The notes below the pieces were generated by a model. That model had not been told where the DNA came from. It did no database searches and saw nothing but the letters and a program-made list of their open reading frames with translations. From Hyphochytrium catenoides (taxonomy: Eukaryota > Sar > Hyphochytriomycetes > Hyphochytriales > Hyphochytriaceae): 24,904 nt of DNA. Positions 127 through 24,000 of this stretch are shown piece after piece. The stretch covers positions 12,616-37,519 of the forward strand of contig FLMG01000131.1 in the NCBI GenBank assembly GCA_900088475.1, written 5' to 3'. The translations under genes and the position numbers were made by a program. The stretch's first letter is position 1. Each line of letters begins with the position of its first letter.

Positions 127-3100
127 ATGTGTGTCCAAACAGCAATTGTGGGGGCCATGGCCGATGTATGACCTTAAGAGACTTTGCTTCTCGCGGCGCT
201 CTCTCCTACGGTCTGCCGTCTCCTGTCTCTTACAGTGTCAACTGGGATGCTGAGAAGATTCAGGGCTGTTTCTGCGACGAGGGATACTCCGGTCCAGGCT
301 GCGAGCTAAGTGAGTCGACCTGCTTCTGTCATCCTGGCACCACACTGCTGCCAGTTGCCGGATTCTATGGCTTCCCTTCTAAGCCTCTCCGAGGCTTCTA
401 ACACCACGTCTGCCGTCAACCAACTTCCCTAGAGGCTTTTGGCGGCTAATACTTCTCTGCTTCTCCTACTGCTCTCACTGGTCTTCAGATTTGTTTGAGG
501 CTATCCTTGCCTCTCTCCTCCCTTAATTACTCTTCCCTCTCACTCTCTCTTTTTCAATCTGTCTCTCTACCCGCATAAAACTTTCTCCTTCTCCGGCCGT
601 GTTTTCAACTCATTTTAACGGAATGGTGTACTTCTATCCTGGACGATAGGGAGCTGCCCTGCAGGTGATGATCCATTGACTGGAACGGTGGAGGATCCCC
701 AAGGCTTGCAAGTGGATGAGATCCAGCAGATCACGTGTACAGCCACGGTAGGTCTATTAGGCGAAGGGAAAGAGAAGAAGAGAGAAAGACGCTGGCTCTG
801 TTGTTCATTGCTTTCTTTGTGCTCTCTCTCTCGTCTCTCACTGGCTTGCTCTTTGTTGTCTCCTTGTTATCCTCCTAATAATAGGGGGGAACCTTCACGT
901 TAAGTTTCAAAGGAGAGACAACTCCGCGGCTTCCTTGGGACTCTTCGGCGGCGATGGTGCAGGAAGCTCTGAGAGGATTGCGGACGATGGGAAAGGTGGC
1001 GGTTGAGTTTGCTTCTTCTTCCCTCTCCGCCTGTTCTCTCACAGGGACGAGGATTGTTATCCTGTTTCTGACCGAACATGGAGAGTAAGAATCACCAAGC
1101 ATCAACCCCCTTCTTTCCTTCACAATTATCTTCAAGCATCACCCCTCCTGCACGGCACCTTGAGCTGCTCTTCTCCTCTCACTACTCTTCTTTTATCTTT
1201 GCTCTCTCTCCCTTTACCTCTCTCCTGTCCTTTGCCTCTGCTTTGCCTGCCTTCTCTAGCCATGGATTCCTGGTTCCTCTACTAGCTGCGCGTGGAGATA
1301 ATAGTCTCTATAGTATTCTTGCCTAACCTGTTCTCTCCTTTCGCCTTCTTCAGGTTGCCTCTTATACTTGGGGACGACTCTGCACTTGTCTCCTCGTCTC
1401 TCTCCGTACCTCCTGGGCTGTCCGTCCATAGGATTCAGAAAGGGACAAAAGAGAGTGTTCCCTGTGCAGGCAGAGGAACATGCGACAGTTCTATTGTATG
1501 GACTATCTGTCTCTTTCCTTCTCATCCTTTTTGTCACTCAGGACTGATCTTCTCCTGCACTCTACGAGCCATATTGCCTTCACTTGTTACCTCTTGCAGC
1601 CAACTAGATGTTGTTGTTGCTGGTTTCCTCTCACCACCTCTCTTTCCCTTCCTTTGACCGGTCAATTGGCTCTGCTGTTAGGGTGATTGCCAGTGCTTCG
1701 AAGGCTATTCAAGCAGTGACGGCGCAGGGAGGCCAGGAGTTAGGGGAGAATGCGGCTTCAGGAAAGAGCAAGAAGTTAGATGTCCGGTAGGAACAAGGCC
1801 ATTGCTTTCCTTCCTACGACGCACGTGGTCACGACTTGATACTTGGCTTGTTCTCTTTGGATCTCCATCTCGTCTCTCTTTCGCTGTCACACCTACGTAG
1901 AACTCTTCCCCTAGCCGTCGTCGCCTAAGTTATGATTTCTGTTTGCCCGCGTTCCTTGTAAACGTATCCCTGCTTACTTCGTGTTCTCCTATGGGTTCTC
2001 AATGACCTGATGTGGCTGTCACGGCACTCTTCCACTACGATGCTGGCAGGGTCCTTCCCAAAGCCTCTGCAGTGGACACGGTGCCTGTAGCGGGCCTCCA
2101 ACCTTCCGCTGCCTCTGCCACCAGGGCTGGACAGGAGGAGACTGTGGACAACGTAGGGCCAAGCAAGACATTATCGGCTGCCTCTCTACTTTTTTCTCTT
2201 TCTTATAGATAGAGATATACAAGCCTAACCATTGAAGTCATGATAACGTAGACTAAACACTCGCTTTCCGCAGGCATCTGTCCTAGTGGGAAGTCTTTCT
2301 TCTCCTTCCCTTCGACTTCGACCTCTGCGCACCCGTTGGCAGAGTGTTCCTCGGCTGGAGTCTGCGATCGCAGCACGGGAGAGTGCACGTGCTATCCCGG
2401 ATATGAAGGAGCAGCTTGCGAGCGATGTAGGAGTTTGGCTCCTTTGCTTCTTCCCTCCTCTTCTGGCTTTAACTTACTCTCTCTATCTATACCTCTTTTT
2501 CCTGTCTTTCTGTCTGCTCCTCTCTCTTTCCCCTCTAGGGATCCTTATCTCCTTTTTCTGTCTTCTACCAGGACAGACAGCAGCTTCCTGCTTCTACCAT
2601 AACTTTGCCGCTTAAAGCACGCCCTCGCTTTTAATTTCCTCTCGCCGATCCTTGGCTGCTAATCGTGGCGGTTCGGCAAACTGTTCTTTTGCTAAACTAC
2701 CTCTAGGTTTCTCTGCACATCTCTCATTTCTCTTTCTCTCTCTCCCCCTGTCTATCTCTCCTCTCCTGCTTATTCTTTCACTGTCCTCTTTCCGTTCTCC
2801 CTCATCTCTCTGCGGTCGAGCAGTGGCTTGTCCCGGCGGCTCCCAAGAAATAGCGTGCAGTGGCCATGGGCGTTGTCTTTCTATGCGCAAACTGGCACCT
2901 CTTGGTCGGACACCCATCACGAAAGATCTGACGGGTCTGGCCTATGGAGAGGGCGATCCTAAGAATCTGAATGTAGGGGTTTCTCTCTCTCTGTCTCACT
3001 CACTCTCTCTGAAATATCCACATCCAGATGTCTTACCTTGTTTCCCTCAATACGTTCTCCAGTCCCAGTCGTTGTTTCATCCTCTCTCTATCTCTTTGAT

Positions 3101-3402: not shown

Positions 3403-3433
<31 letters not shown>

Positions 3434-4653
3434 TGTGTGTGTGTGTGTGGAGAGAGGGAAGGGGAGAGGAGTTCCTCTTGCGCCAAATGACGGAGACAAC
3501 CTATCTAAGAGTCTCTCCTTTTGTCCTTTTGTTACTGAAAGTTGGCTGTTTCCTCCTCTGCATCGGTGTCTTTGGTTCTCTTTCTCTTATCCTTATTTCT
3601 GGTGTCTTTAAGCTAGTAACAGATCTATTTACTGCTGCGTCGCCTTGTCTAGGAGCTGCTTTGCACAGGGACAGGTGGTTTCTTTTTCCTCACCTTCCGT
3701 GGCAAAGATACAGAACAGATACCGTTTGACGCTCCGAAGGAGGAGGTAAGAAAGACGGCACTTTAAGGAGAGAGGGAGATGGTGAAAGAAAGAGAAAATC
3801 GAGAGATCGTGAGACCTCATGAAGGAGCTCTCATTCTTACACTTCGTTCCGTCCTTGTGGTGCAGTTACAGCGTCTGCTTGAGGAGGTGGAGAGCATTGG
3901 TCGAGTGACCGTCAGTTATTCTCAGGACGGTCTTGGAGCTTGCACATCTCTCTCTCCCTCGTCTCAGAGTATATCAGTCACTTTCGTCGACGACTTTGGT
4001 CCTCTTCCTGCCTTGGTAGCCACAGTCGGTGAGCCCTGAGGAACTTCACACAGCGTTTTCCAATGACTCTGCTCCTCGCTCTCTAACGGTCCCTTCTATT
4101 GTCCACATTGCTTCTGAACTCTTGGGCCACAGATGGCGTTGGCGTTACGGAGGTCGTAGTGAGGGCTGACGGCAGTGGTGCTTCTGTCCTTGGTACCAAG
4201 GAAGACTTGCTGTGCTCGGGCAGGTGAGAAGCAAGAAAGAGAACGACTGCTACCTCGGGAACAATGGACTATCGGCCTGAAATCTCAGTTGCTCTTTCTC
4301 TAATTTAGGGGTGTCTGCATCTACGACATTGGACAATGCAAGTGTGCGGAGGGCTTCACCAGTAGCGACGGTAAGGTCATTGAGGTTGGGTCTGAAAGAA
4401 AGGTGAAGAGGGAGAATGTGGATTACGGAAGTAGAGACACAGAGCATCAGAGAGAGAAAGAGAGCTAGAGAGAGAAAGAGAGAGCCAGAGTGAAAAGTAG
4501 AACAAGACAGACCGTCGACGAAACAAGCGGCCAAGCTTTGCTGATAAGATGGACTCTGCAGGGTGGGGTTCTCCTGGCCCGCGAGGGGATTGTGGCTATG
4601 TGGATCCTCTTTATTGGAACTCCGAGGCCCAGAGACATAATGATAACCTCTGA
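127..4653 (+). CDS. Modular EGF-like (tenascin-like) protein, 3' part; 5' end outside window
   Basis: Exons: 127-309, 650-747, 885-1084, 1354-1495, 1682-1786, 2050-2152, 2274-2426, 2824-2972, 3141-3210, 3319-3392, 3653-3745, 3866-4028, 4133-4223, 4309-4370, 4562-4653 (stop TGA). All junctions are GT-AG and the frame stays open, giving about 591 residues. Two copies of one large module are seen: a CxGHGRC EGF with WDAE/WDAD and DEGY or DQGY; CPAGDDP or CPTGDD; a beta-rich stretch (GGTFTLSF, GGFFFLTF); GTKE followed by CAGRGTC or CSGRGVC; then SSDG and a C-G pair. Between them lie two plainer EGFs (CSGHGAC; CSSAGVCDRSTGEC). Cysteine-rich EGF modules imply an extracellular or lumenal protein, probably adhesive. 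This module order is one I associate with stramenopiles. The last residues are hydrophilic, with no membrane anchor. The first exon begins in mid-codon after a pyrimidine-rich acceptor, so the signal peptide, if any, lies upstream. Exact function unknown. Confidence 0.86.
3407..3449. repeat. Compound microsatellite (GA)n-(TG)n in an intron
   Basis: About 27 bases of alternating GA followed by about 16 bases of alternating TG, inside the intron 3393-3652 of the EGF-like gene. It lies close after the donor site. No function is suggested beyond simple-sequence slippage. Confidence 0.9.
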
Positions 4654-4838: not shown

Positions 4839-7800
4839 CTAAAGAGCTGCCAGCGCGTTTCTCCTTCGTGTGGATCGCTTCTGCAAAGGGACAGAGACAG
4901 AGCAACAAGTAGGAAATGCTTAAGCCTTCTACAGAGAAACATATAAACACTTCGTTTAGCTTCTAGGACGCGCGTGTGATATCTCTTACCTTAACTGGAC
5001 TTCCGTTCTCTTCTTCCTCCTTAATCGGGCCTTCTAGCTGCTTTGCCGCTCTCTTCTTTCCTCTGGAAGGGAGAGGGGCGTTTTCCTTGTCGGACAAGGT
5101 GTGATGGCAAGAAGGAACAGGAACAGCAACCCTCCTGCCACTCCGGAGGCTAAGAGTGGAAATGGAGGAAGCGTCCGAGTCGCTCTGCTGGCACAAGTCC
5201 GCTGTGTCTTTTGTCTGAGAACGTGTGCGACGAGAGATCTTCTTACATTCGTTGTGGTCCTCGCCTTTCTCTCCGTCTTCTGGGTGCTGCTTATCCTGGC
5301 CCTTTATTTTGGACGCCTTCTTCCGCGTTCTTGGCTTCTCCTGCTGCTCTCTGTTTTCCGGCTTTGGGGCTTTCTTTGCTCTCTTCTCGACTAGAGGTCC
5401 CTCTTCTTCGTGGGTGGATATGAGTTCCTCCTCGGTGTTCTGGATGGAGTTCTTCCGTGTGCGTCTGGTTCGTAGTTTCTTTGGCTTAGCCGTTGTATTT
5501 TCTTCCTCCTCTTGGTTCTTGTCCACGCTATGAGACGATGCTCCACGTCGCCTTCTCCTCTTTTCAGGAGCCTCGTGGCTCTCCTCGTTCCCAACGGAGG
5601 CCTTGTCCTTAAAAGATAACTGTCCTTCCTCGTCTTTTACTGTGGAAGCAAGAGGAAGGGGCAATGAGCCAGGGATAAAAAAAGGCTGAGTATGAAGAGT
5701 AAGGGGACTGTGTACCATTGAGTCAGAGGCAGTTATTAATGTGGAAAGAGAAAGAGTGGGAACAGGGAGTTATGGAAGGCCATCATAGCGAGACTACCTT
5801 TCTTTTGCCTCTTTCTTTGGCGAGACTTGTCTTTTTCACTGTCGCCCGTATCCTCGACCTGCTCTCTTTCCTTATCCTCATCTTTCTTTAACTCTTCTGT
5901 GGTCTCTCTATTACTCTCCGGGTTGCACTCTTCCAACATCGCCTCTCTAAGAGCAAGAGAATCTTGAAGATAGGCATCCAGTACGAAGCCGTAGGCAATA
6001 TCTAAAGAGAACAAGAGGTTTAAGCTTGGGTTGGGGCGGAAACAGTGGGAGCAGGACGACCATCACCGGCTGCCTTCTTTATGTCGTTTGTGAACTTCTC
6101 ACCTTGGTCAATGTCAGCAAGGACTGACAGTTTATCTGCAAATTTCCGTACCTCTGCTTCCTCAATAGTATCCTTAAACAGAGAGTCTAATGCCATCTCG
6201 TCCTCCACTAATCCTGCATCTCTTTCCTTGACAGCGGCACTACGATAATGACGGACGGTGGGTGAGATGAAGATGGCAGCTGAGAAGCGTCCGGCTGCTT
6301 AGGGGAGTAAGCTCAGGATGCTCTTACATTTGACCTTCTTCACTTCCATCGGCGGCTCGTTTAGAGTCCAATGCTGACTCCGTTGCAACAAAAGGCAGAC
6401 TGACAACAACTTCATCTTCTCCCGTTGGCTCCTCCGATACGTGCGCTTTTTGTTCAACTTCTGCTTCAGGAACTCTTTTGAACTCCAGTGACTGGCGACG
6501 GAAGGCTTCTGGATCAACCAGATACGCAGATAGTGCTGTATCATAGGCTTCTTCCTCTGGGCGAGATAGAACGAATTTAGAGACAAGCACTGGAGCAGTG
6601 GGGAGTCAAAGGAGAAAGAGGTCACTTATAGACAGAATAGACACAGCGACAGACTCCATAGTGTGTGAGATGGCCCTACCAAGACAGGATAAGGAAGAAG
6701 GAGACTGCCAACCTGTTTGCACTTGACCGTGCAGAGTGAGCTCCTGAGCTTGTTCTTCAATGAGCTTCTGGTCCTTTAAGACCAGCATCTTTCGCGTCTC
6801 CTGAGCGCTCTCTTGGTCTAGGGACATTAGGGGTTGAGGAGTGAGGTCACTGAGAAACCCAAAGACAGTCTCACCTGCTGCAGCCTCATCTTGTCGTAGC
6901 ACCTCAGGTTCCTGCTGGTAGGCTTCCACCACGACCCTATATGACACAGCTGTTGCAGGAAGGCTATTAGGGCTCGTCTCGGACAAGGCAGCCGGGCATC
7001 ATGGAAATTGCTTACGAGGGGATAACAAAGGGGCCAAAGGGAGAGAGCTAGAGGGATCATTGGAAAGAGAACCTCTTACATAAGTCGGCCTCTGTCTCAG
7101 CGCTCAGTCGCCTAGCAGCCTGTAAAACCACCTCTTGATCTGCTCTGCACTTCGTTATACACTCCGCCAACGGCGAGACCATCGCTGCGTAATGGCTCCC
7201 GTGCTCCTCTCGTCTTCTCTTTCTCGTACTGACCGCCTCCTTTATCGCTCTCGTCATGGGGCTTTCCATCGTCCTCAAAGTCTTGACGTTTCCCAAAGAG
7301 GAACTCTGAATGTCTCTTTTGAGTGGAGAGGACAGCTTACGCAGTTGGGAATAGTGAAGGGGACGGCTGTCTACCGCCTGCTCCACCTCCTTCTTCAAAG
7401 GAGAGGAGATTCGAGGAAGCATAGAGAAGTGTGGTTGACGGCCAGCTACGGTATCTCTTATCTCTTCCCTTACGGGAGAAGAAACTCTTGACAAAGAGGA
7501 AAAATGTGGAGGACGGCTGTTGACAGCTTCCTCAAGCTCTCTTTTTATGGGTGAGGAGATCCTCTGGCACTGTGAAAAGTGTTGAGAACGATTGGCGGCA
7601 GTCATTGCGAGTTCCCTCTTCAAAGGAGATTCAAGCTGAGGAAGAGCGGAATGATGTGGCTTGCGGTTGCGAGCTACCTCTTTCAGGTCTCTCTGGAGCG
7701 GAGAAGAGAGATGTGGAAAGGAGACTATACGTGGTGGACGCGCGCTGGCTGCCGCTCCAAGTTCGTTCTTAAGAGGAGAAGGTAGGTGAGGAAGAGCAGA

Positions 7801-10800
7801 AAAGTGTGGAGGCCTGGTATGGGCGGCTGTGTGGAGCTCTTTTCTCAAGGGGCTAGGCAACCCAGGGACGGAGGAGATGTGTTGAGATCGTGAAGCGGTC
7901 GCGTCTCTGACTCTCCTAAGAAGTTCCTCCTTATACTCCGCGCACCATCGCATGGCGGAGGCCTGAGGGCGCTGGAACCTCTCTGCAGCAGCTCTGACAA
8001 GTTCTTCCCTTTGCCGCTGAGGAAGACGAGACATCTGCGAAAAGTGCGGCTTGGCATTCATGACATTGGCGGTATCCTTCAGCTCCTTGGTAAGCGGAGA
8101 GGAAAGTGTTGCAAGCTCTCTGAGAGGCGGTGGTCGATTGTCGGCTATGTCAGCTGCTTTGCTCTTCAGCTCCTGCTTTAGAGCTTCAGGTACAGAACCC
8201 ATTCCCGCGTGCAGAGCTCGTCTCTCTGCTCTATCTAGAGCATCTTGCTGCAAATCTTTCCTCAGTGGGCTTGGCAGAGTCGGCACCTCAGTAAGTAGTG
8301 GAGGGCGGCTGCTCTCTCTCTCTTTTCCTCGTAGTACTAGTTCGTGTCTAAGGGGAGAAAGTATGGTAGGAACTTCGCTGGCCAAGGGCACTCGAGATTC
8401 TTCTCTTTCTTTTGTCTTTCCCTTCAATTCCCGTTTTATTGGTGTCGGCAAAGCTGGCAGCTCATCATGTTGAAGCGGTCGCCTGCTCTCTCGTTCTGTT
8501 GCCTTGCTTTTTACCTCGGTCCTCACAGGAGAAGGGATAACTGGAACCTGGCTGTAGTGCAAAGGACGGGTCTCGGCTGAAGCTTTCTGGTACAACTCCG
8601 TTTTGAGGGAGGCGGACATTAAAGGAGGATCAGCCGAAGAGCTAACCCTGCGTGCTTTGGCTTTGTTTTCCAATTCTTTCTTGATAGGGGAAGGAATGGT
8701 CAGCAACTCGTCTCTGAGAGGAGGACGGCTGGCCCCTCTGTCTCGTCCTTCTTTCTGCAGCTCCTCTTGCAACTCTTTTGGAAGAGAGGGAAGCTCCTTG
8801 TAGATGTCAGAGCGGCCAATTTCTGTCTCCCTGACTGCCTGCTTAAGCTCTTTCTTCATGGGAGTTGGCAATCTCGCACTTTCCGCATAGTGCACCGGTC
8901 TTCTCTGGTCCATCGCGGCGGCTGTCGCTACCAGTTCTTGTTTCTGCGGTGAACTCATCACAGGAGGGATGGGGATCCCAAACAGCGAAGAGTCGCTGCT
9001 GACTTCCGATCCAGTTGCTAGGCTGAATGATGATATAGGAAGCGAGGAAAGAATAGCAGTATCTGAATCTTGCTCCATTCTTCTTTCTCTCTTGTTGGCC
9101 TCTTGACAGAGTTCCTCTTTTAGTGCTGAGTCGAGAACTGGGCCCTCAGAATAGTGCTTCGGGTCCCTAGCCGCCGTTTGTTGGAGCTCGAGTCCTGGTC
9201 CTTCCGCCATCGAGCACGGGACGTCGCTGGGTCGATTGACTGTTCCTCCTGTGGAACCATGAATCTCCAGAAGCTCCTGCCGCGATGGAGAAGAGAGAGA
9301 AGGCAGAACCGCCGAGGTCCCTGTCTCTGGGTTCTCCATGGCTCCGACTTCGTTCTCTTCTGGAAGAGGAGGAAGAACCATAGAGGGACTATCTTCTTTG
9401 TGAGCGCATTCGACTAATGTGGTCTCCTTTTCCCCAAGCAGTTCGTCCTGTTGCGCATGGTTCGGTACCAGGGCATTCTCTAGGCACTGCTCTTCCGGTT
9501 TATTAACCGCCTGATTGATTGTTCCCACAATTCTCTCCTCGACGGACTGCTGCGTCTCTTGAATGATTTCCTGGGTTTCAGTTACTTTCTCCTGCTGACG
9601 ACAAACTTCTGGCGATTCCACACTGAGGTCGTCTAGAACAACCTTGGGGGTCTCTGCCTCTACAGACTCCTTTGACACATCAGGCACAAGGAACGGAGAA
9701 CTTGGTCCTGTTGCGCTCAAGGTTGGAATAGAAGGCAAGGAAGGCGAAGGAGAGAACCTCTCGCCAAGAATGCTGCCAGGATCCGAAGATTCATCTACCT
9801 TGTAGCGCTTTGCTGGACTCTCTTCCAGTGAGCACCCAGGTCGAGGGGACGATGATCCAAACGAAGAGGGAGACGAGAGTGCATTCTCCCTGTTCCTTTT
9901 CTCTGGAGTACCCATCGGAACGCCATTCTCCGACGCCGTGCTGTGCCGACCGTTTTGCCCCTCAGATATCTCTGTGGCCGAATAAGACTTCTCATGGAGA
10001 GCTTTCACAGGTGTTGACGCAGAGTTGATTGGGGCAGGGGCCACAGGCTGAGGAGATGGAGGAAGGGCGTTTTCTTTCTCAGACAGGAATTCATACTCCG
10101 ATGGACTTTGGCTCTTTTCCTCAATTTGTGGAGAGGGGATAATCGTCTTGGAATGAGGAGCGCGGTCAGCCAGCGGTCTCCGCTGTAAGAGCGTCCTATT
10201 TCTCACTGCTGCAACCCAGTTGGTCCTCAGAGTGCTAGGAAGATCTGTCCTAGGGAAAGAACTTCTTGCGGGCATCGAGATGGTTCGGTCTTCAGCGTCG
10301 TCCGAGACCATTCCTGGGGTAGACATGGAGCGCTGCGTTGAAGATGTAGGTTCTATGTCCTTTGCGCAGTCATCTGCAGCCCAGGATTCCTGGTGGAGAG
10401 GTTCTGGCAGCAAGAGTGGACGTGAGGGCCAAAGACATAAGATACCCGTGAAAGGAGAAAGGAGAGCAACGTTCAAGGGTCCAAGGGTATGAACTCGAGG
10501 CCAGAAAGCAAGAGTTGAAGGAGAATGTACTAGATAGGCAGAGCGCTACCAAGGGTAAGAGGTGGATCATGATTCGAGAGAGCCAAGATAAGCCAGAAGG
10601 AGCACACTTTGTGTCGTACCATACTCCCAGCGAAAGGAGCGATCTGCAATCTTGATTATGGCGCCATGAGGGACAGCAGTGGGTTTACGAAGTGCCTCAT
10701 CGTTGAGCAGCGTAACATTACTCTGAGTAAGGGACTCCAGGATAACCTGGCCATCGATCACGTTAAGACTGGACGGGCTCTGTCGAGGACGGATACCACA

Positions 10801-11095
10801 AAAGGAGATAAACATAGAGGATAGAGATAGACTGTCTACCTTTCCCCTACGGCAGATCCGGACGCTGGCGTGTAGGCGTGAGACCTGCGGTAACTGGATG
10901 CGGATGTCGCAGGAGTCTTTTCTAGAAGGGGAAAAGAGAGTTAGCCGACGGCCCATTGCAGTGGGCAAGCAAGCAGTGTGATGTAGACCTGCCCAAAGTG
11001 ATATCCTGGCACACTTGGAAACGGCCACCTTCCTTTCCGTCCCGCTTGATGACAATGATGGTTCCAAACGGAGCCACCTTAGACGGTCCTTCCAT
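4839..11095 (-). CDS. Ki-67-like FHA-domain protein with CDK-site repeats
   Basis: Exons, in order of transcription: 11095-10989, 10921-10840, 10779-10620, 10373-7080, 6949-6875, 6817-6713, 6589-6328, 6239-6067, 6001-5798, 5639-4990, 4880-4839; 1717 residues. Residues about 10-116 are an FHA domain with GR (35-36), S50, H53 and N89 in the usual places. CDIRIQLP (40-47) and DRSFR (109-113) match the animal Ki-67 FHA closely, and the start lies about as far before the first strand as in Ki-67. Residues about 477-1192 hold roughly 25 repeats around SPLKREL. KEN boxes lie near residues 216 and 1672. Residues 1488-1717 are very rich in K, R and E. Ki-67 coats mitotic chromosomes in animals; a similar nuclear, mitotic role is inferred here. 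Uncertain points: the 60-base intron 10839-10780 is open in frame and may be coding; the junction near 10620/10373 has alternatives; skipping the last splice gives a stop at 4963. Confidence 0.82.
7147..9294 (-). repeat. Coding array of about 25 repeats of 25-29 residues with CDK sites
   Basis: Within the large exon of the Ki-67-like gene. The core is (S/T)P-x-(K/R)-x-(E/D)-(L/I/V), followed by an alanine-rich stretch and then a proline/histidine segment such as RPPHFS. I counted 25 units: 15 keep the full CDK consensus S/T-P-x-K/R, four keep only S-P, and six have lost it. Units near the 3' end of the gene have a period of 25 residues; units in the middle have a period of 29, with an extra ERE-like insert. 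The copies are diverged at DNA level, so the array is old rather than a recent expansion. Confidence 0.85.
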
Positions 11096-15694: not shown

Positions 15695-16254
15695 ATGGTA
15701 AGTAGAGAGAAGTTTGCTGTAAATGATTGGAGTATGTGGCGGTGGGGAGCGTGAGCTGCAATGTCCGGGCTGTAATGTCCGGGCTGTAATGTCCGGGCTG
15801 TAATGTCAAGGTCCATGTAGGCGAAGCTGTTCAAAAGGATGCTGCTTCATGCCTAGGCTTGGTCAAGACACTCCTTTCTAAGGCTATGTTTCTGTTGGCA
15901 ACAGGGTAGACGCACTAAGAAGGTCGGTATTTGCGGTAAATACGGAACCCGTTATGGTTCCTCTCTGAGAAAGATCGTCAAGAAGATCGAGGTGACTCAG
16001 CACTCCACCTACAACTGCGTATTCTGCGGCAGAGACTCTGTGAAGAGAAAGGCTGTCGGTAGGTTAATATAAAGTCGAATCAATCCGGTTTGTATGCCAT
16101 GCTTAGGGTTTGTCGTTTAGGAATCTGGGTGTGCAAGGGCTGCCATAGAACCGTGGCAGGTGGTGCATACACTCTCGCTACCCCCTCTGGAGCTACCCTG
16201 CGATCTACCATGGCCCGTCTCCGTAAGGTGCAGGGCGAGTCTCTTATGGCTTAA
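15695..16254 (+). CDS. RPL37A: 60S ribosomal protein eL43 (L37a)
   Basis: Exons: 15695-15697 (the ATG alone), 15905-16058, 16121-16254; 96 residues. Structural protein of the large cytosolic ribosomal subunit, bound to rRNA through a zinc ribbon. The N-terminus [17 protein letters not shown] is almost invariant in the family. The four zinc ligands are present as C39-x2-C42 and C57-x2-C60, followed by the conserved TVAGGAYT segment. The family is usually about 92 residues; here the C-terminus (GESLMA) is slightly longer. A start codon cut off from the rest by an intron (ATG/GTAAGT) is common in ribosomal protein genes of many eukaryotes and explains why no longer first exon is needed. Introns are 207 and 62 bases long. 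A possible AATAAA signal follows at 16407. Confidence 0.97.
15755..15810 (+). repeat. Four tandem 14-bp repeats in eL43 intron 1
   Basis: Four consecutive copies of a unit reading GCTGTAATGTCCGG. The first has one change (CAATG) and the last ends in AAG. They lie about 60 bases after the donor of intron 1 of the ribosomal protein gene. The near-identity suggests recent slippage; a regulatory role is only a guess. Confidence 0.93.
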
Positions 16255-17460: not shown

Positions 17461-20320
17461 ATGAACACCAGCCGCCTAGTACACTGCTATCGTCGCTTTA
17501 GGCCTCGAGGCTTGCAAGCACTGGAGCAAAGGCCGAATAATGCACATAGGAACCCTATTCGTAAGTAGACGGGGTTCGCTTGCCGGCAATGAGCCATCCT
17601 CCTCGCTTCTTTTCTGTCATGGATTCACAAGAAGCGCACCCGCCCCGTAAGACCTTAGTTTCTTAAGAAGAACTCATAGCCTCTCTGTTGCTGCATTCAG
17701 GCCTCTTGTCTGTCTATCGTCGAGCAGAACCTCTAAGGAGCGTTGGTGCCCCTTTACCACTTGCCACTCTGTTATTGGGAGCAGCAGTAGGTGCAGGGTT
17801 TGCTTTCTCAAGCCATCACAGTGGCTGTGAAGAGCAAAAGGCCGCGTGTGACACTCAGGCGCATATAACTCAGCGATGGTACTACTACAGAGGTAAGGCC
17901 CTCTGATCCTTTTAATGAGTGGCTTCCATTGTCATCCTTTCCACGCGCATTGCTGTCCTAGGGCTCTAGCTCTCTGCGATGCAACTGTCTCCTGCTGTCT
18001 CCCGCCATTAGTACTATCATCTATCCTCATGTACTCTCAAATAGGTCCGTTATCCAAAGATCACTTGCAGATCTGCAATATCAAGATCTTCGCTTGCCAA
18101 GAGCAGCCGATTGCATCAGATATTGCGCGATACCTCGGCGTCCCGCTGGGCGACCTGAAGGGTGGGACGACGCCCACCTCAATTCTTGCTCTGTCCGTCT
18201 TTTGACTCTTCTTTGCCTTTTGATCATTTCTTCATCCTCTTCTTCCCTCTCTAGCTCTTTTCCTCTACTCGTCTCTCTAGCTCAATCTTTCTAGAGAATC
18301 CATAATACTTGTCCCGATTCATCAACCATTTTTGCGCTCCTCGCTTCATAAGTGTCTCTCTTCATCTGCGTCTCTCTTATCTGAAGCTTCCTCTCTGGTT
18401 TTATTGCTGATAAGCTATTGCAGAAGTTGATGAGTTACGACTAACGTCTTGTCCACAGTTGGCAGTTTTGCCGATGGCGAGACCAGCGTAGAGTTTAAAG
18501 AGAGCGTAAGAGGCGATGACGTGTACATTGTCTGCTCTACCACTTCACAAGATAGGTATGGCAAAGGCAAGAAGTCAATGGCAGTGCCCTTTCCTTCCTT
18601 CGCATGTGTGCTGGCAGTTGTTGTTGCTTATCATGGAGACTGGGCGTTGTCGCTGTGTTCCTGTGAGTTTAGTTGCTTACTCAATGGTCGCAGGATTATG
18701 GAGCTTTTTCTTTCAGCTTCCGCAGCATCTCGTGGCTCAGCCAAACGAATAACTGCAATTATCCCTTTCTATGGTAAGTGATTTTGTTTGGTTAGGAGGT
18801 AAAAGGAGAAGAAGGGCCTAGAGAGGGCCTGTAAAAGCAGGATAGACCCATTTGAGCCTGCTACTCGACTTGAAGCATCCTCATGGGTAATCTGGTCGGA
18901 AGGTTACTCGAGACAAGACCGGATGGCAACTGAGGGAGAAACAGTGGCGGCAGCGGTAAGATAACTTCATCACCTTGCTCGACTTGTTCTGATAGACTTA
19001 GCCCTTCTGCCTTCGGCTGGTCAGGACATAGCGCGGATGCTGGAGGTTGTAGGGATTGATCGAGTCGTAACGATTGACCTCCATACAGGGCAGACAGAGG
19101 TAGAATGCGTAGTTCCCTCCCCCCTGGCGCTTTACTAAGAATTTCTTCACACTGCTCCCACACAATCATTGTAGGGCTTTTTGTCACCAAGAATGCCAGT
19201 AAGTGCTTCCTCCTCTCCAACGCTTGAACGTCTGGCTAATCAGTATTTGGACCCCTCTATCCTTTTCTCACTGAATCTATTGTCTATCTTCTTCCTATCC
19301 ACCGTGTCGTTGCCGGTTAGATGGATAACATTCAAGCAATGCCTCTGGGCGCAGCTTACCTCTCTGAATCTGATCTGGATTCGCCTGTCGTGGTAGCTGC
19401 CCAGGAAAATGAAGTGCACAGAGCCAAATCGTTCTTCAAAGCTTACCAACAGTTTAAGGGAAGGAAAGACGGTAAGCAATGAAGAAAGGAGAACATCATT
19501 CTCAATTATAGACTGTGAGGTGCCCGAGAGGGACTCTTCACAGAGTAAAGCCAGGAGGGGCGTCCTGTAGAAGGAAGATCATGGTGGTTAGGAGGCAATA
19601 GGTGGGACTTGCAAGATGACCCTAACGCGTGTCCTTTAAAACAGGCATCTCGTTAGCGATGTTAGTTCGAGCTAGAAAAGACCGAGGGACAGTGGAGCTA
19701 GTAGGAGATGTCGAAGGAAGAGACTGTATCATTGTGGACGACATCGTAGATACAGGAAGGACGCTCCTGTCAAGCTCTCGGCTGCTAAAGGAGAAGGGAG
19801 CGAAGAGCGTCTCCGCCTTCGTAGTTCATGGTCGTTTCTCTGCGGAGGTATGGAAAATGAAGCGGATCCATACCGCGAAGTATTCTATGTCTAGGTCGTT
19901 GGCAAAGTGCGAGCCCAGTCTCCCTCTCCTTCGCCGCTATCCCAGCTTCTCAATGGCCGCTAAGTCATCATTTGGATCGCGTTATATATACAGAGCGTGA
20001 GGCTTGTCGAGGAGAGTCCAGACTTAGACAGGCTGATAATTTTGGACACAATCCCACCCCCTCCAGCCTACGACCCCGAGGTAAGCAGAGAGTGGCTGTG
20101 ACGGTTAGGACGAGTGGAGGCACTGTCAAGAGACAGTGGAGAGGGTAAAACACTTTTGTCCTCCTCTAAGATACTCCTCCCACAGCATAGCAAGATTGAG
20201 TACGTCTCAGTGGCGGCTCTATTAGCGGAGCTGATCAAGGTGATACACCTGAAGGGATCCATCACGGAGATTTTTAACCCAGAGATTCACGGCACGATTG
20301 ACCGTCCTAAGGGGCCATAA
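17461..20320 (+). CDS. PRPP synthetase family protein with mitochondrial-type leader and membrane segment
   Basis: Exons: 17461-17560, 17701-17892, 18045-18161, 18459-18555, 18694-18773, 18903-18955, 19025-19099, 19175-19198, 19321-19471, 19645-19847, 19994-20080, 20186-20320; 437 residues. Ribose-phosphate pyrophosphokinase makes PRPP from ATP and ribose 5-phosphate for nucleotide synthesis. Seen here: FADGE with [28 protein letters not shown], the metal-binding DLHTGQ and the PRPP loop DDIVDTGRT. Residues 1-46 are Arg-rich, contain only one acidic residue (E22), and suit mitochondrial import; residues about 51-69 are a hydrophobic segment, so the enzyme may be anchored in the inner membrane. 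The family core starts near residue 108. Odd points: the usual SPDAGG motif reads AAQENE, the catalytic-loop lysine appears replaced, and RxPI after RQDR is missing. It could be a regulatory PRPP-synthetase-associated type rather than an active enzyme. AATAAA overlaps the stop codon. Confidence 0.94.
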
Positions 20321-21147: not shown

Positions 21148-21849
21148 ATGTGGTGGTTCTCAGCTGCATGCGGACAACGGGGAGACGAAGACGCTAGATT
21201 TTGCGGTGAGGTCAATCGTAGCTTCTTTGGAGAAAGTCTTACTTCTCTGCGCCTTTCTCCCCTTCATTGTCCTAGTACAGCATCCTCTCTCTCTTTTCTC
21301 TTCTCTCTCTCATTTTTAAGACTTCAAAAGCGCGATCACATTAATGACGCGGACACTGATCGGTACAGTCTGTGAACCTGCTCTCAGGTAAATGCGGACA
21401 GCCACTCTTCGACCCCAGCCAAGCTCCAGCGTCTTCTCCCCTACCAGCATACCCTCCGGAGACTGTAATCCTTTTGGCTGATGGTTCCACTGCAACGTAC
21501 GGTGAGCCATTTCAAACATTAGTCAGTGGCCAGGTGATAGGGATGGACGGCCAGTGTCTCCACGCGGTGCAGGCGACGCAATTTACTATCTGTGGCGTGC
21601 TTCTAGCGATTATCTTCTTTCCTCTAGGCGTCCTTTGCTGCCTATTGCTGACAGAGCAGCGGTAAGACCTGCTGGCTGGCACATGGCATATGATAGTTGT
21701 ACACTGAACCAAATGCGCAACGTTTCACTTGCTTCTTGACCGTGTCAACTCTCCTCCTCATTTGATGACTCTGGCTAAACATTTTGCTTGCCTCTCCGTT
21801 GCTGTGCTCCTTCTTAATCAGCTGCGTCCACTGTGGGGCTTACCTCTGA
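21148..21849 (+). CDS. Small zinc-ribbon membrane protein resembling brain protein I3 (BRI3)
   Basis: Exons: 21148-21205, 21388-21661, 21822-21849; 119 residues. The middle is rich in proline and small residues (PSQAPASSPLPAYPPE). The C-terminal part is FTICGVLLAIIFFPLG, then VLCCLLLTEQRCVHCG, ending AYL. This hydrophobic segment followed by R-C-x2-C-G is the pattern of the BRI3/DUF2367 family, whose animal member is a small endolysosomal membrane protein of unclear role. The N-terminus adds RFCGKCGQPL, a second CxxC knuckle assembled across intron 1. The short last exon (RCVHCGAYL) fits the family and confirms the frame. The first ATG of this frame is taken as start; a further upstream exon cannot be excluded. 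Function unknown; membrane location inferred. Confidence 0.8.
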
Positions 21850-22418: not shown

Positions 22419-22803
22419 TAGCGCCAAAAGGACAGACAAACTGTAAAAAGCTCCATCTCATGTGCTCCAGATCAGAAACGGATATTTGGACCTCCTTGAA
22501 TGTTTCCAAATATACTTAAAGTTCCAGAGAATTAAATGCAGAGGAAACATTCGTATCATTCAAGTATGCCTTTTCGATACTTTTCGAGGCATATCTTGGA
22601 TGATGTCAAAAGAGTCAGAATCCAGTTCACGATCGTCGTCGTCGGTCTTTCCTTGGCCGTGCGGAGAGGACCAGTTGCGCCTGCCTTGACCTAGAAGCGC
22701 GGCTCTTGACTGTTGAAGCAGACTGGTACGAGACTGGGTCCTTCTCGAGACTGTACTGTCATCGGTAAGTTTGAGCTGGAACGGCTTCGTATCGTCGGGG
22801 AGA
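22419..22803 (+). other. Region upstream of the dehydrogenase, with an exon-like stretch
   Basis: From 22604 to 22764 one plus-strand frame is open and protein-like (LDLEARLLTVEADWYETGSF) and ends at a strong donor, CG/GTAAGT. A different frame here holds a 42-codon ORF with its own ATG at 22565 and a hydrophobic stretch. The first could be a 5' exon of the dehydrogenase gene, but the nearest acceptor would leave an intron of only 38 bases. No firm gene is called. Confidence 0.35.
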
Positions 22804-24000
22804 ATGGTGATGTGGACACTTATTACGGGTGCGAACCGTGGCATCGGATTTGAGCTCGCTCGGCAGCTCTTGCTGGTTGACAGGCCAGTGCTTATTGGGG
22901 GGCGAAGCGGAGATCTGATTGAGAAGGCTAAGAAGGAGTTGCTGCAGCTGACCAACAAGCAAGAAGAAAATGTTGCTACTTTTGAGCTGGATTTGATGGA
23001 TGATGCAAGGTATCTGCTGCTGCGAGCAGCTATATCGTGTCTCTTTTAAGAATCCTCTCCCAGTGACTTGACATCATGAGACCCACAATCAATCTGCAGC
23101 TCTTTCTCTTGTACGAGATGTCTTAGAGTCCGCTCCTTCTCTTATACGGAGTTCTTAGGTCTCGCTTCTCCTCTGGCTCTGCGTGAACCCCACTCCTTCA
23201 ATCAGCATCACAAGCGCCATCGAGTATCTTAGCAAGCACTTTGATCAAAATATCACGGCGCTAGTCAACAACGCCGCCATTTTGCGGCAAGACACCTGGA
23301 CCCGAGAAAATTTTGATGAGGTCTTGAAGACAAACTATCACGGAACCTTACGGTTCCTTAGAGGCGTTGCGCCGCTACTTCCACCCGAGTCCCGAGTTGT
23401 CAACATTTCTTCGCGCATGGGAGAGCTCTCTGGGCTACCTCAAGTCTATAGAGAAGCGATAGCGAATGCGAGCTTGGACGATCTAGAGAAGATTTCCTTT
23501 GATCCTAATCTCCGTAGCGCAGGCACTGTCTCGTACTCCGTTAGCAAGGCGATGATCAATAGAGCTACCCATCTGCTCGCAGAGGAGGAGCCTTTCAAGA
23601 AAAGGCACATCAAGCTTGTCGCTCAGACTCCTGGATGGGTACAGGCTCCTTTGCCCCTACATCTGGAACATATCGCTTCCATAGTATCTTCTCTAACGTT
23701 CTTCCCGTAAAAGCTCACGAGACCTGTCGGCGCAGCATAGAGTGTCCTGCTGAGCGCACTTTCACTTCTTCACCGCGCTGCCAGACATGATCTGTGTCCT
23801 CTGCGCTTGTTTGTTTCTGGAGAGTCTCCTTCTGATGATTTCCTCCTTTATTGTAGGTTCAGACAAGAATGGGCGGAAGCGGAGCCCCTAAGTCCATTGA
23901 GGACGGAGGACGAGCGCCTTTCCGCGCGGTGACATGTGACTTCGCGTCCCTGCCCAACGGCTGCTTTGTAGATGAAGAGGTTAAGCCGTTGGAGTTCTAA
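22804..24000 (+). CDS. Short-chain dehydrogenase/reductase, carbonyl-reductase type
   Basis: Exons: 22804-23009, 23206-23638, 23857-24000; 260 residues. NAD(P)H-dependent oxidoreductase with a Rossmann fold. The cofactor loop is TGANRGIG near the N-terminus, the structural motif is LVNNAAI, the catalytic Ser lies in VVNISSRMG, and the catalytic Tyr and Lys are in SYSVSKAMIN (Y-x3-K). PGWVQTRMGG after the active site is typical of CBR1-like carbonyl reductases, which are about 270-280 residues long. The second exon joins in phase 2 (AG/C) and the third in phase 0 after PGW. The start is ATG at 22804; another in-frame ATG follows two codons later, directly before WTLITG. No signal peptide is seen, so it is probably cytosolic. 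The substrate cannot be told from sequence. Confidence 0.93.

Follow-up and report, generated by a model that had tools for sequence, protein, structure and literature searches.

A probable stramenopile member of the Ki-67/bridgin family of FHA-domain proteins in Hyphochytrium catenoides

Ki-67, which coats the chromosomes of dividing animal cells, is among the best-known markers of cell proliferation, and its origin is little discussed. The question raised here is whether a gene of Hyphochytrium catenoides belongs to the family of this protein and, if so, by which route it came to be there. The gene lies at 4839..11095 on the minus strand of a stretch of 24,904 nucleotides of contig FLMG01000131.1, which is referred to as the window. 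An initial annotation, made from the sequence alone, had described it as encoding a Ki-67-like protein in a probable stramenopile. Our analysis indicates that the gene is probably a stramenopile member of the Ki-67/bridgin FHA family and that vertical inheritance from an early eukaryote is its likeliest origin. It is placed in the wider Ki-67/bridgin family and not with Ki-67 in the strict sense. The family has previously been reported in animals, fungi and Amoebozoa, and a stramenopile member would apparently be new.

The N-terminal FHA domain occupies residues 1-105, encoded by exons 1-3 (10620..11095, minus strand), and was recognized in searches of PDB sequences, Pfam and a large protein collection as well as by alignment. 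Pfam matches the FHA family at residues 32-96 (4.4e-12). Against PDB sequences, the two best entries are both Ki-67 FHA domains (2.9e-16 and 8.7e-16; 62.7 and 61.2 bits), with human Ki-67 at the top, and the third entry, the bacterial OdhI FHA domain, reaches only 20.9 bits as the best of the non-Ki-67 sequences. In total, 22 sequences were matched up to E = 1, including MDC1 and TIFAB; NIPP1 was not among them, although its chain 2jpe is present in the library. The search of 5.8 billion proteins was restricted to 0.55-1.75 times the query length and to proteins sharing exact 5-residue words with the query. Among the 34 candidates scored, only one fell below E 0.001, and it comes from the lizard Phrynocephalus forsythii (3.9e-14, 44% identity). 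Its source calls this protein only FHA domain-containing or hypothetical, but by Pfam it carries PP1_bind as well as the KI67R repeat. This search was narrow enough that human Ki-67 itself is not listed, and the absence of further protein matches says little because shared exact 5-residue words are needed.

The human Ki-67 FHA domain, searched back in the assembly exon by exon, finds this gene first, albeit modestly (E 0.0014, 24.1 bits; second exon 15.3 bits), with the best place outside the gene at 20.0 bits. Scored over the open frames of loci that cover eight of the assembly's ten FHA places, the gene reaches 39.5 bits with the human domain and the next frame 19.7. The similarity to the human domain is not due to chance, as the pairwise alignment scores 167 and none of 1000 shuffles exceeds 47. 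The gene is 40.7% identical to human Ki-67 and 44.8% to the lizard protein in this domain, which are 65.2% identical to each other. All three share G35, R36, S50, H53, N78 and CDIRIQLP. The stretches IIVIKRDG and CDIRIQLPQVS are the same, letter for letter, in the gene and the lizard protein. A profile of the three sequences, of which Ki-67 is itself a part, gives strong matches to Ki-67 only. The initial annotation had based its claim of a Ki-67-type FHA domain on CDIRIQLP and DRSFR at positions matching those in Ki-67. Both motifs are indeed present, but at residues 40-47 and 98-102 they are offset by five to six residues from their human counterparts (35-42 and 92-96). The claim itself agrees with the PDB-sequence search, the lizard match, the reverse comparison and the shuffles, and judged by its sequence the domain can with high confidence be called one of the Ki-67 kind. 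A calibration of the distance is offered by another FHA locus of the same assembly (L001, on contig C239), for which human NIPP1 ranks first among the PDB sequences (56 bits, 33.7% identity). NIPP1 is probably an FHA protein common to both lineages, and since the NIPP1-like domain is only 33.7% identical to its human match, the identity of the gene to human Ki-67 falls within the range of vertical descent.

Behind the FHA domain lies a long body dominated by exon 4 (7080..10529, minus strand; 3450 nt with an open frame throughout), which contains an acidic stretch (residues 113-560, pI (isoelectric point) 4.76) followed by an entire repeat array (7246..9129, minus strand; residues 573-1200). 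By reading, the array comprises about 20 units, of 25-29 amino acids where regular, with the core [ST]P-L-[KR]-[KR]-E-[LI], to which the 25-residue units add RPxHFSxLP or a similar sequence. Four units start every 29 residues from residue 772, and eight consecutive ones, the last of them decayed, are spaced at 25 residues with starts from 998 to 1173. The strict motif [ST]P[LVIM][KR][KRTHEN][DE][LIV] occurs 13 times, compared to a mean of 0.009 and a maximum of 1 in 2000 shuffles. Sites of the cyclin-dependent kinase (CDK) type, [ST]Px[KR], number 19 where about 3.5 are expected, with 14 of the 19 within residues 632-1173. The array of CDK-site repeats described in the initial annotation is thereby confirmed. 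It is basic, with a pI of 9.74 over residues 561-1135. Differences among the 25-residue units amount to 338, 294 and 484 at the first, second and third codon positions, and such an excess at the third position is what a conserved protein sequence would lead one to expect. An estimate of dN/dS among these units was set aside, as only 11 of 28 pairs were usable and the values are saturated (median dN 0.65, dS 1.54). No relative of the repeat region was found at E <= 0.001 among 7990 scored candidate proteins, the PDB sequences yielded just two weak chimeric chains (E 0.021), and exon 4 has no match in NCBIfam. Within the assembly, the part of the array that was searched hits four places at E <= 0.01, all inside this gene.

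Exons 5-8 (5798..6949, minus strand) are mostly acidic, with a pI of 4.25 over residues 1256-1490. Three look-alike units (approximately AYxxxLxAYLxDPxAxR) start in this acidic stretch at residues 1258, 1349 and 1469, in three separate exons, and Pfam gives no match across them. The C-terminal tail (4842..5933, minus strand) comprises residues 1491-1765, that is 275 amino acids, and ends in KKRSTRRRNALAAL. Lysine and arginine make up 24.7% of it, the pI is 9.37 and the net charge +11, with basic and acidic clusters alternating. The tail had been described as very basic; basic it is, but the interspersed acidic clusters do not bear out the stronger word. KEN boxes mark substrates of the anaphase-promoting complex/cyclosome (APC/C), and the protein has two, at residues 257-259 (10069..10077, minus strand; context FLSEKENALPP) and 1720-1722 (5080..5088, minus strand; context TLSDKENAPLP). 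Their surroundings, SEKENALPP and SDKENAPLP, are nearly identical. A plain KEN is expected twice with P 0.03. Two occurrences of [DNE]KEN.{0,2}P were reached in 0 of 20000 shuffles and two of KEN.{0,2}P in 41 of 20000, both extended patterns having been defined after the sites were known. To go by the sequence, the two boxes suggest that the protein may be removed after mitosis.

The gene model that joins these parts was predicted with a splicing script. It has 10 exons and a product of 1765 amino acids, with the start codon at 11095 and the stop codon ending at 4839, so that the model arrives at the same limits as the initial annotation. From high to low coordinates on the minus strand, the predicted exons are 11095-10989, 10921-10840, 10746-10620, 10529-7080, 6949-6713, 6589-6328, 6239-6103, 6001-5798, 5639-4990 and 4880-4839. 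All nine introns are bounded by GT..AG and measure 67-158 nt, and their pyrimidine content is 63% compared to 46% for the coding strand. The weakest joint of the model is the predicted intron 3 (10530..10619, minus strand; 90 nt), which links the FHA exons to the repeat exon and has a donor, GTACGA, that falls short of a strong consensus.

Several results weigh against placing the gene in the Ki-67/bridgin family. In an FHA tree of 18 rows, the gene and the two Ki-67 sequences are grouped with a support of only 59/29. The support is 94/90 in a tree of 13 rows, from which DUN1, three of the assembly's own FHA loci (L003, L004 and L012) and one of two bacterial domains were dropped, and this removal was decided after the first tree was known. 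All five rows were on a list of long branches, of which the assembly's own L001, EmbR, the other bacterial domain and kanadaptin were kept. The rows are FHA sequences taken from search outputs, many of them fragments, and do not include bridgin, so the position of the gene inside the family is left untouched. The initial annotation had proposed such a phylogeny as a check; the Ki-67 grouping appears clearly in the smaller tree and weakly in the larger one. Furthermore, the disorder of the middle region is borderline by composition, the Uversky values (disordered below 0; a measure of composition only) being 0.002 for residues 106-560 and -0.028 and -0.080 for the repeats, and the tail is just moderately basic. 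The features that distinguish animal Ki-67 were also looked for. The Ki-67 repeat (PF08065, KI67R) and PP1_bind give no Pfam match up to E = 1, while the lizard control matches at 3.1e-25 and 4.6e-15, respectively. Aligned to the body of the protein, the lizard repeat does no better than shuffles (P 0.99), and neither the lizard PP1 stretch (P 0.26) nor the stretch that we take to be the Ki-67 conserved domain (P 0.68) stands out against shuffles. RVxF-type motifs are not enriched (one, RIVSF at residue 1039, compared to 0.9 expected), and the last 275 residues contain two LR/RL pairs where 2.8 are expected, which does not point to a leucine/arginine-rich tail. Outside the FHA domain, none of the animal-specific Ki-67 features tested was detected. 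The motif of the conserved domain is said to be present in all homologues (PMC4841783), and the PP1 motif to be conserved throughout Ki-67 orthologues (PMC8354752). Since no PP1-binding domain was found here, it would be wrong to class the gene among the strict-sense Ki-67 orthologues. The claim that the protein follows the Ki-67 plan stands for the general plan, while homology over the whole length is not supported. A search for the FHA-binding region of NIFK (PF12196) was uninformative, as it gave no match and the controls likewise gave none.

How securely the gene can be assigned to a stramenopile depends on the assembly, which measures 42.5 Mb in 1105 contigs. Mitochondrial cox1 is found on two of these (C402 and C1105). 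Nine of the best 120 of 8000 scored cox1 homologues name an organism, and the six species concerned are all stramenopiles: Nannochloropsis (Microchloropsis) gaditana, Heterosigma akashiwo, Saprolegnia ferax, Phaeothamnion confervicola, Discosporangium mesarthrocarpum and Schizocladia ischiensis. The best match of all, which is not one of these nine, stands at 97%. The probable stramenopile host of the initial annotation is therefore supported, by contigs other than the one carrying the gene; such a host would probably be a unicellular relative of diatoms and brown algae. Other markers added no placement. The large subunit of RuBisCO was not found in the assembly, with 5 of 14 controls matched and a plastid that may be missing from the assembly. 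The C-terminal domain of GAPDH had no match there, with 14 of 14 controls matched; introns or stretches outside the search may explain this. The TPI-GAPDH fusion, which we take to be a nuclear marker of stramenopiles, was tried and rejected, as the TPI frame stops without GAPDH. The density of CT/GA runs was rejected too, because it differs between 0 and 457 per 10 kb from one locus to the next and settles nothing. Adjoining cox1, a frame at 31-1305 of locus L010 carries a long low-complexity C-terminal extension and is presumably mitochondrial cox2.

Three other explanations have been weighed. An unrelated low-complexity CDK substrate may have acquired or retained a Ki-67-like FHA domain, by convergence or domain shuffling, in which case only this domain would be homologous and the shared plan a coincidence. 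None of the features compared beyond the FHA domain matches Ki-67, be it the repeats, the conserved domain or the PP1 domain, and the repeat region stands without relatives among the candidates scored, as such a history would have it. However, Ki-67 itself is little conserved outside a few regions and its repeats are highly variable (PMC8354752), and the bridgin tail can be replaced by that of human Ki-67 despite the lack of evident shared sequence (PMC7794384). As an N-terminal FHA domain, repeats within one exon and a tail rich in lysine and arginine moreover co-occur here, coincidence is considered unlikely. There is also a slim chance that the contig carrying the gene (C957) comes from a contaminant of the culture, be it an animal, a fungus or an amoeba, given that the stramenopile label derives from cox1 on other contigs and C957 is not placed by its own genes. 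The composition of the window nevertheless resembles that of the assembly. Its GC content is 0.499 compared to 0.486-0.513 in the little-masked nuclear loci sampled, and its tetranucleotide correlation with 13 loci, one of them from C957, is 0.785-0.952, which is weak evidence as assembly loci correlate mutually as low as 0.57. Codon usage agrees with frames of the assembly as well, composition and codon evidence both being weak.

Slimmer still is the chance that the gene, or just the part encoding its FHA domain, reached the lineage by horizontal transfer of an animal Ki-67. What speaks for it is that the only match in the protein search is reptilian, with two stretches identical to those of the lizard. 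On the other hand, the two animal domains are far more alike than either is to the gene, which falls outside the human and lizard pair in the 13-row tree (support for the pair 95/87). The repeats and tail are not animal-like either, the gene has nine predicted introns, and its codon usage correlates at 0.80 with that of seven long open frames of the assembly, which are not proven genes (antisense control 0.58). Two peptide patterns scanned against prokaryote genomes retrieved no close relative, with one of 58 matches being an FHA protein, and 21 stretches of viral contigs fitted a pattern without any encoding a relative. An FHA protein in a Halieaceae metagenome-assembled genome, 36% identical over residues 30-101, was rejected as an ordinary bacterial multi-FHA region.

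Vertical membership of the Ki-67/bridgin family is therefore retained as the preferred reading, and it suggests how the protein could work. Going by the sequence, its likeliest role would be that of a tether, switched by phosphorylation, that links chromatin to a phospho-protein partner during mitosis, at the chromosome surface or the kinetochore. The N-terminal FHA domain would bind a phosphothreonine motif of a mitotic partner protein. At mitotic entry, the CDK-type sites of the middle repeats would be phosphorylated, altering the charge and extension of the chain, with reversal at exit. The basic clusters of the tail would anchor the other end on chromatin, so that a layer of phospho-protein or the outer kinetochore is tethered to the chromosomes, and the two KEN boxes would let APC/C clear the protein after mitosis. 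We infer a transcript, a nuclear location, phosphorylation, partners, degradation and a site that is either the chromosome surface, as for Ki-67, or the kinetochore, as for bridgin. That such a plan works in non-animal mitosis follows from bridgin (PMC7794384). It can be proposed tentatively that the last eukaryotic common ancestor already had a tether of this kind, with an FHA domain, a CDK-switched repeat spacer and a chromatin-binding tail. The spacer repeats would then have been replaced repeatedly while the plan was kept, and the stramenopile version might still form a layer on mitotic chromosomes or link the outer kinetochore to chromatin, and be cleared by APC/C after mitosis via its KEN boxes.

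If the placement is right, a stramenopile member spans one of the deepest splits among eukaryotes, and the family would be nearly as old as the eukaryotes themselves and far older than animals and fungi. The parts that were kept (the FHA end, the CDK-switched spacer and the charged tail) could then be separated from the animal-specific ones (the Ki-67 motif, the PP1 site and the leucine/arginine-rich domain). The ancestral task, chromosome coating or kinetochore linkage, would become testable in another supergroup. The initial annotation had suggested that a heterokont member would bear on the age of the mitotic chromosome coat. This holds for the age of the family, but the gene alone does not show a coat, as bridgin is a kinetochore protein.

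The remainder of the window holds several other features. Downstream of the gene and on the opposite strand, an exon of an EGF-repeat protein (EGF_2, laminin-type EGF) is found at 2252-2602 (plus strand) and in neighbouring frames, with GA-rich simple runs nearby at 3406-3433 and 4451-4495. A tandem array of a 14-bp unit lies at 15755-15807 (3.8 copies, 97% matches). On the plus strand, an exon at 19626-20000 contains phosphoribosyl transferase and phosphoribosyl synthetase-associated domains and probably encodes a ribose-phosphate pyrophosphokinase. It is followed by a frame matching Brain protein I3 at 21360-21665 (PF10164, 2.3e-10) and by a short-chain dehydrogenase of at least two exons at 22717-23710.

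Compared with the systems already described, the protein is built on the plan of the Ki-67/bridgin family. An annelid paper reportedly mentions a 'Ki-67 ortholog'. A review of 2021 describes Ki-67 in all vertebrate types (PMC8354752), and a 2014 paper has a Ki-67 alignment that reaches the sea squirt. Ki67 has been named the metazoan homologue of bridgin, and bridgin-like proteins are reported beyond fungi (PMC7794384). Amoebozoa, including Dictyostelium, are named as having the bridgin family in PMC9252888, which does not mention bridgin in the parts covered of its treatment of Alveolata. This review was all that a literature search for Ki-67, stramenopiles and mitotic chromosomes turned up. 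No stramenopile member is described in the open-access literature searched, although the list of bridgin-like proteins in Supplementary Data 4 of PMC7794384 may hold one.

Other FHA proteins, such as NIPP1, SNIP1, kanadaptin and MDC1, have the FHA domain in common with the gene, but score far below Ki-67 against its FHA domain or are unmatched. With animal Ki-67 (MKI67), the gene shares an N-terminal FHA domain of the same type, a long body with tandem CDK-site repeats and a C-terminus rich in lysine and arginine. The repeats also lie within a single exon, as described for Ki-67 (PMC8354752). In contrast, its units are 25-29 amino acids long and of another sequence. Outside a few regions, Ki-67 is poorly conserved across species, and the number and size of its repeats are highly variable (PMC8354752). 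Bridgin from Cryptococcus (Bgi1) is a protein of 1295 amino acids in which an N-terminal FHA domain is followed by an acidic, unstructured middle containing 13 repeats and then by a basic C-terminus. It acts at the kinetochore and not as a chromosome coat (PMC7794384). Its tail has no evident sequence in common with that of Ki-67, and the human Ki-67 tail can nonetheless take its place (PMC7794384). Compared by description, the gene resembles bridgin in its N-terminal FHA domain, short central repeats and basic C-terminus. It differs from Bgi1, of which the whole middle is acidic, in its basic repeat region, and its tail has a pI of 9.4 compared to 11.2 for the Bgi1 basic domain. The wide family has been delimited by a family FHA domain, an unstructured centre and a basic C-terminus (PMC7794384). 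Here, the N-terminal FHA domain lies closer to Ki-67 than to the remaining FHA families, with a support of only 59/29 before rows were dropped from the tree, the central repeats are short, and the C-terminus is basic, more weakly than that of bridgin.

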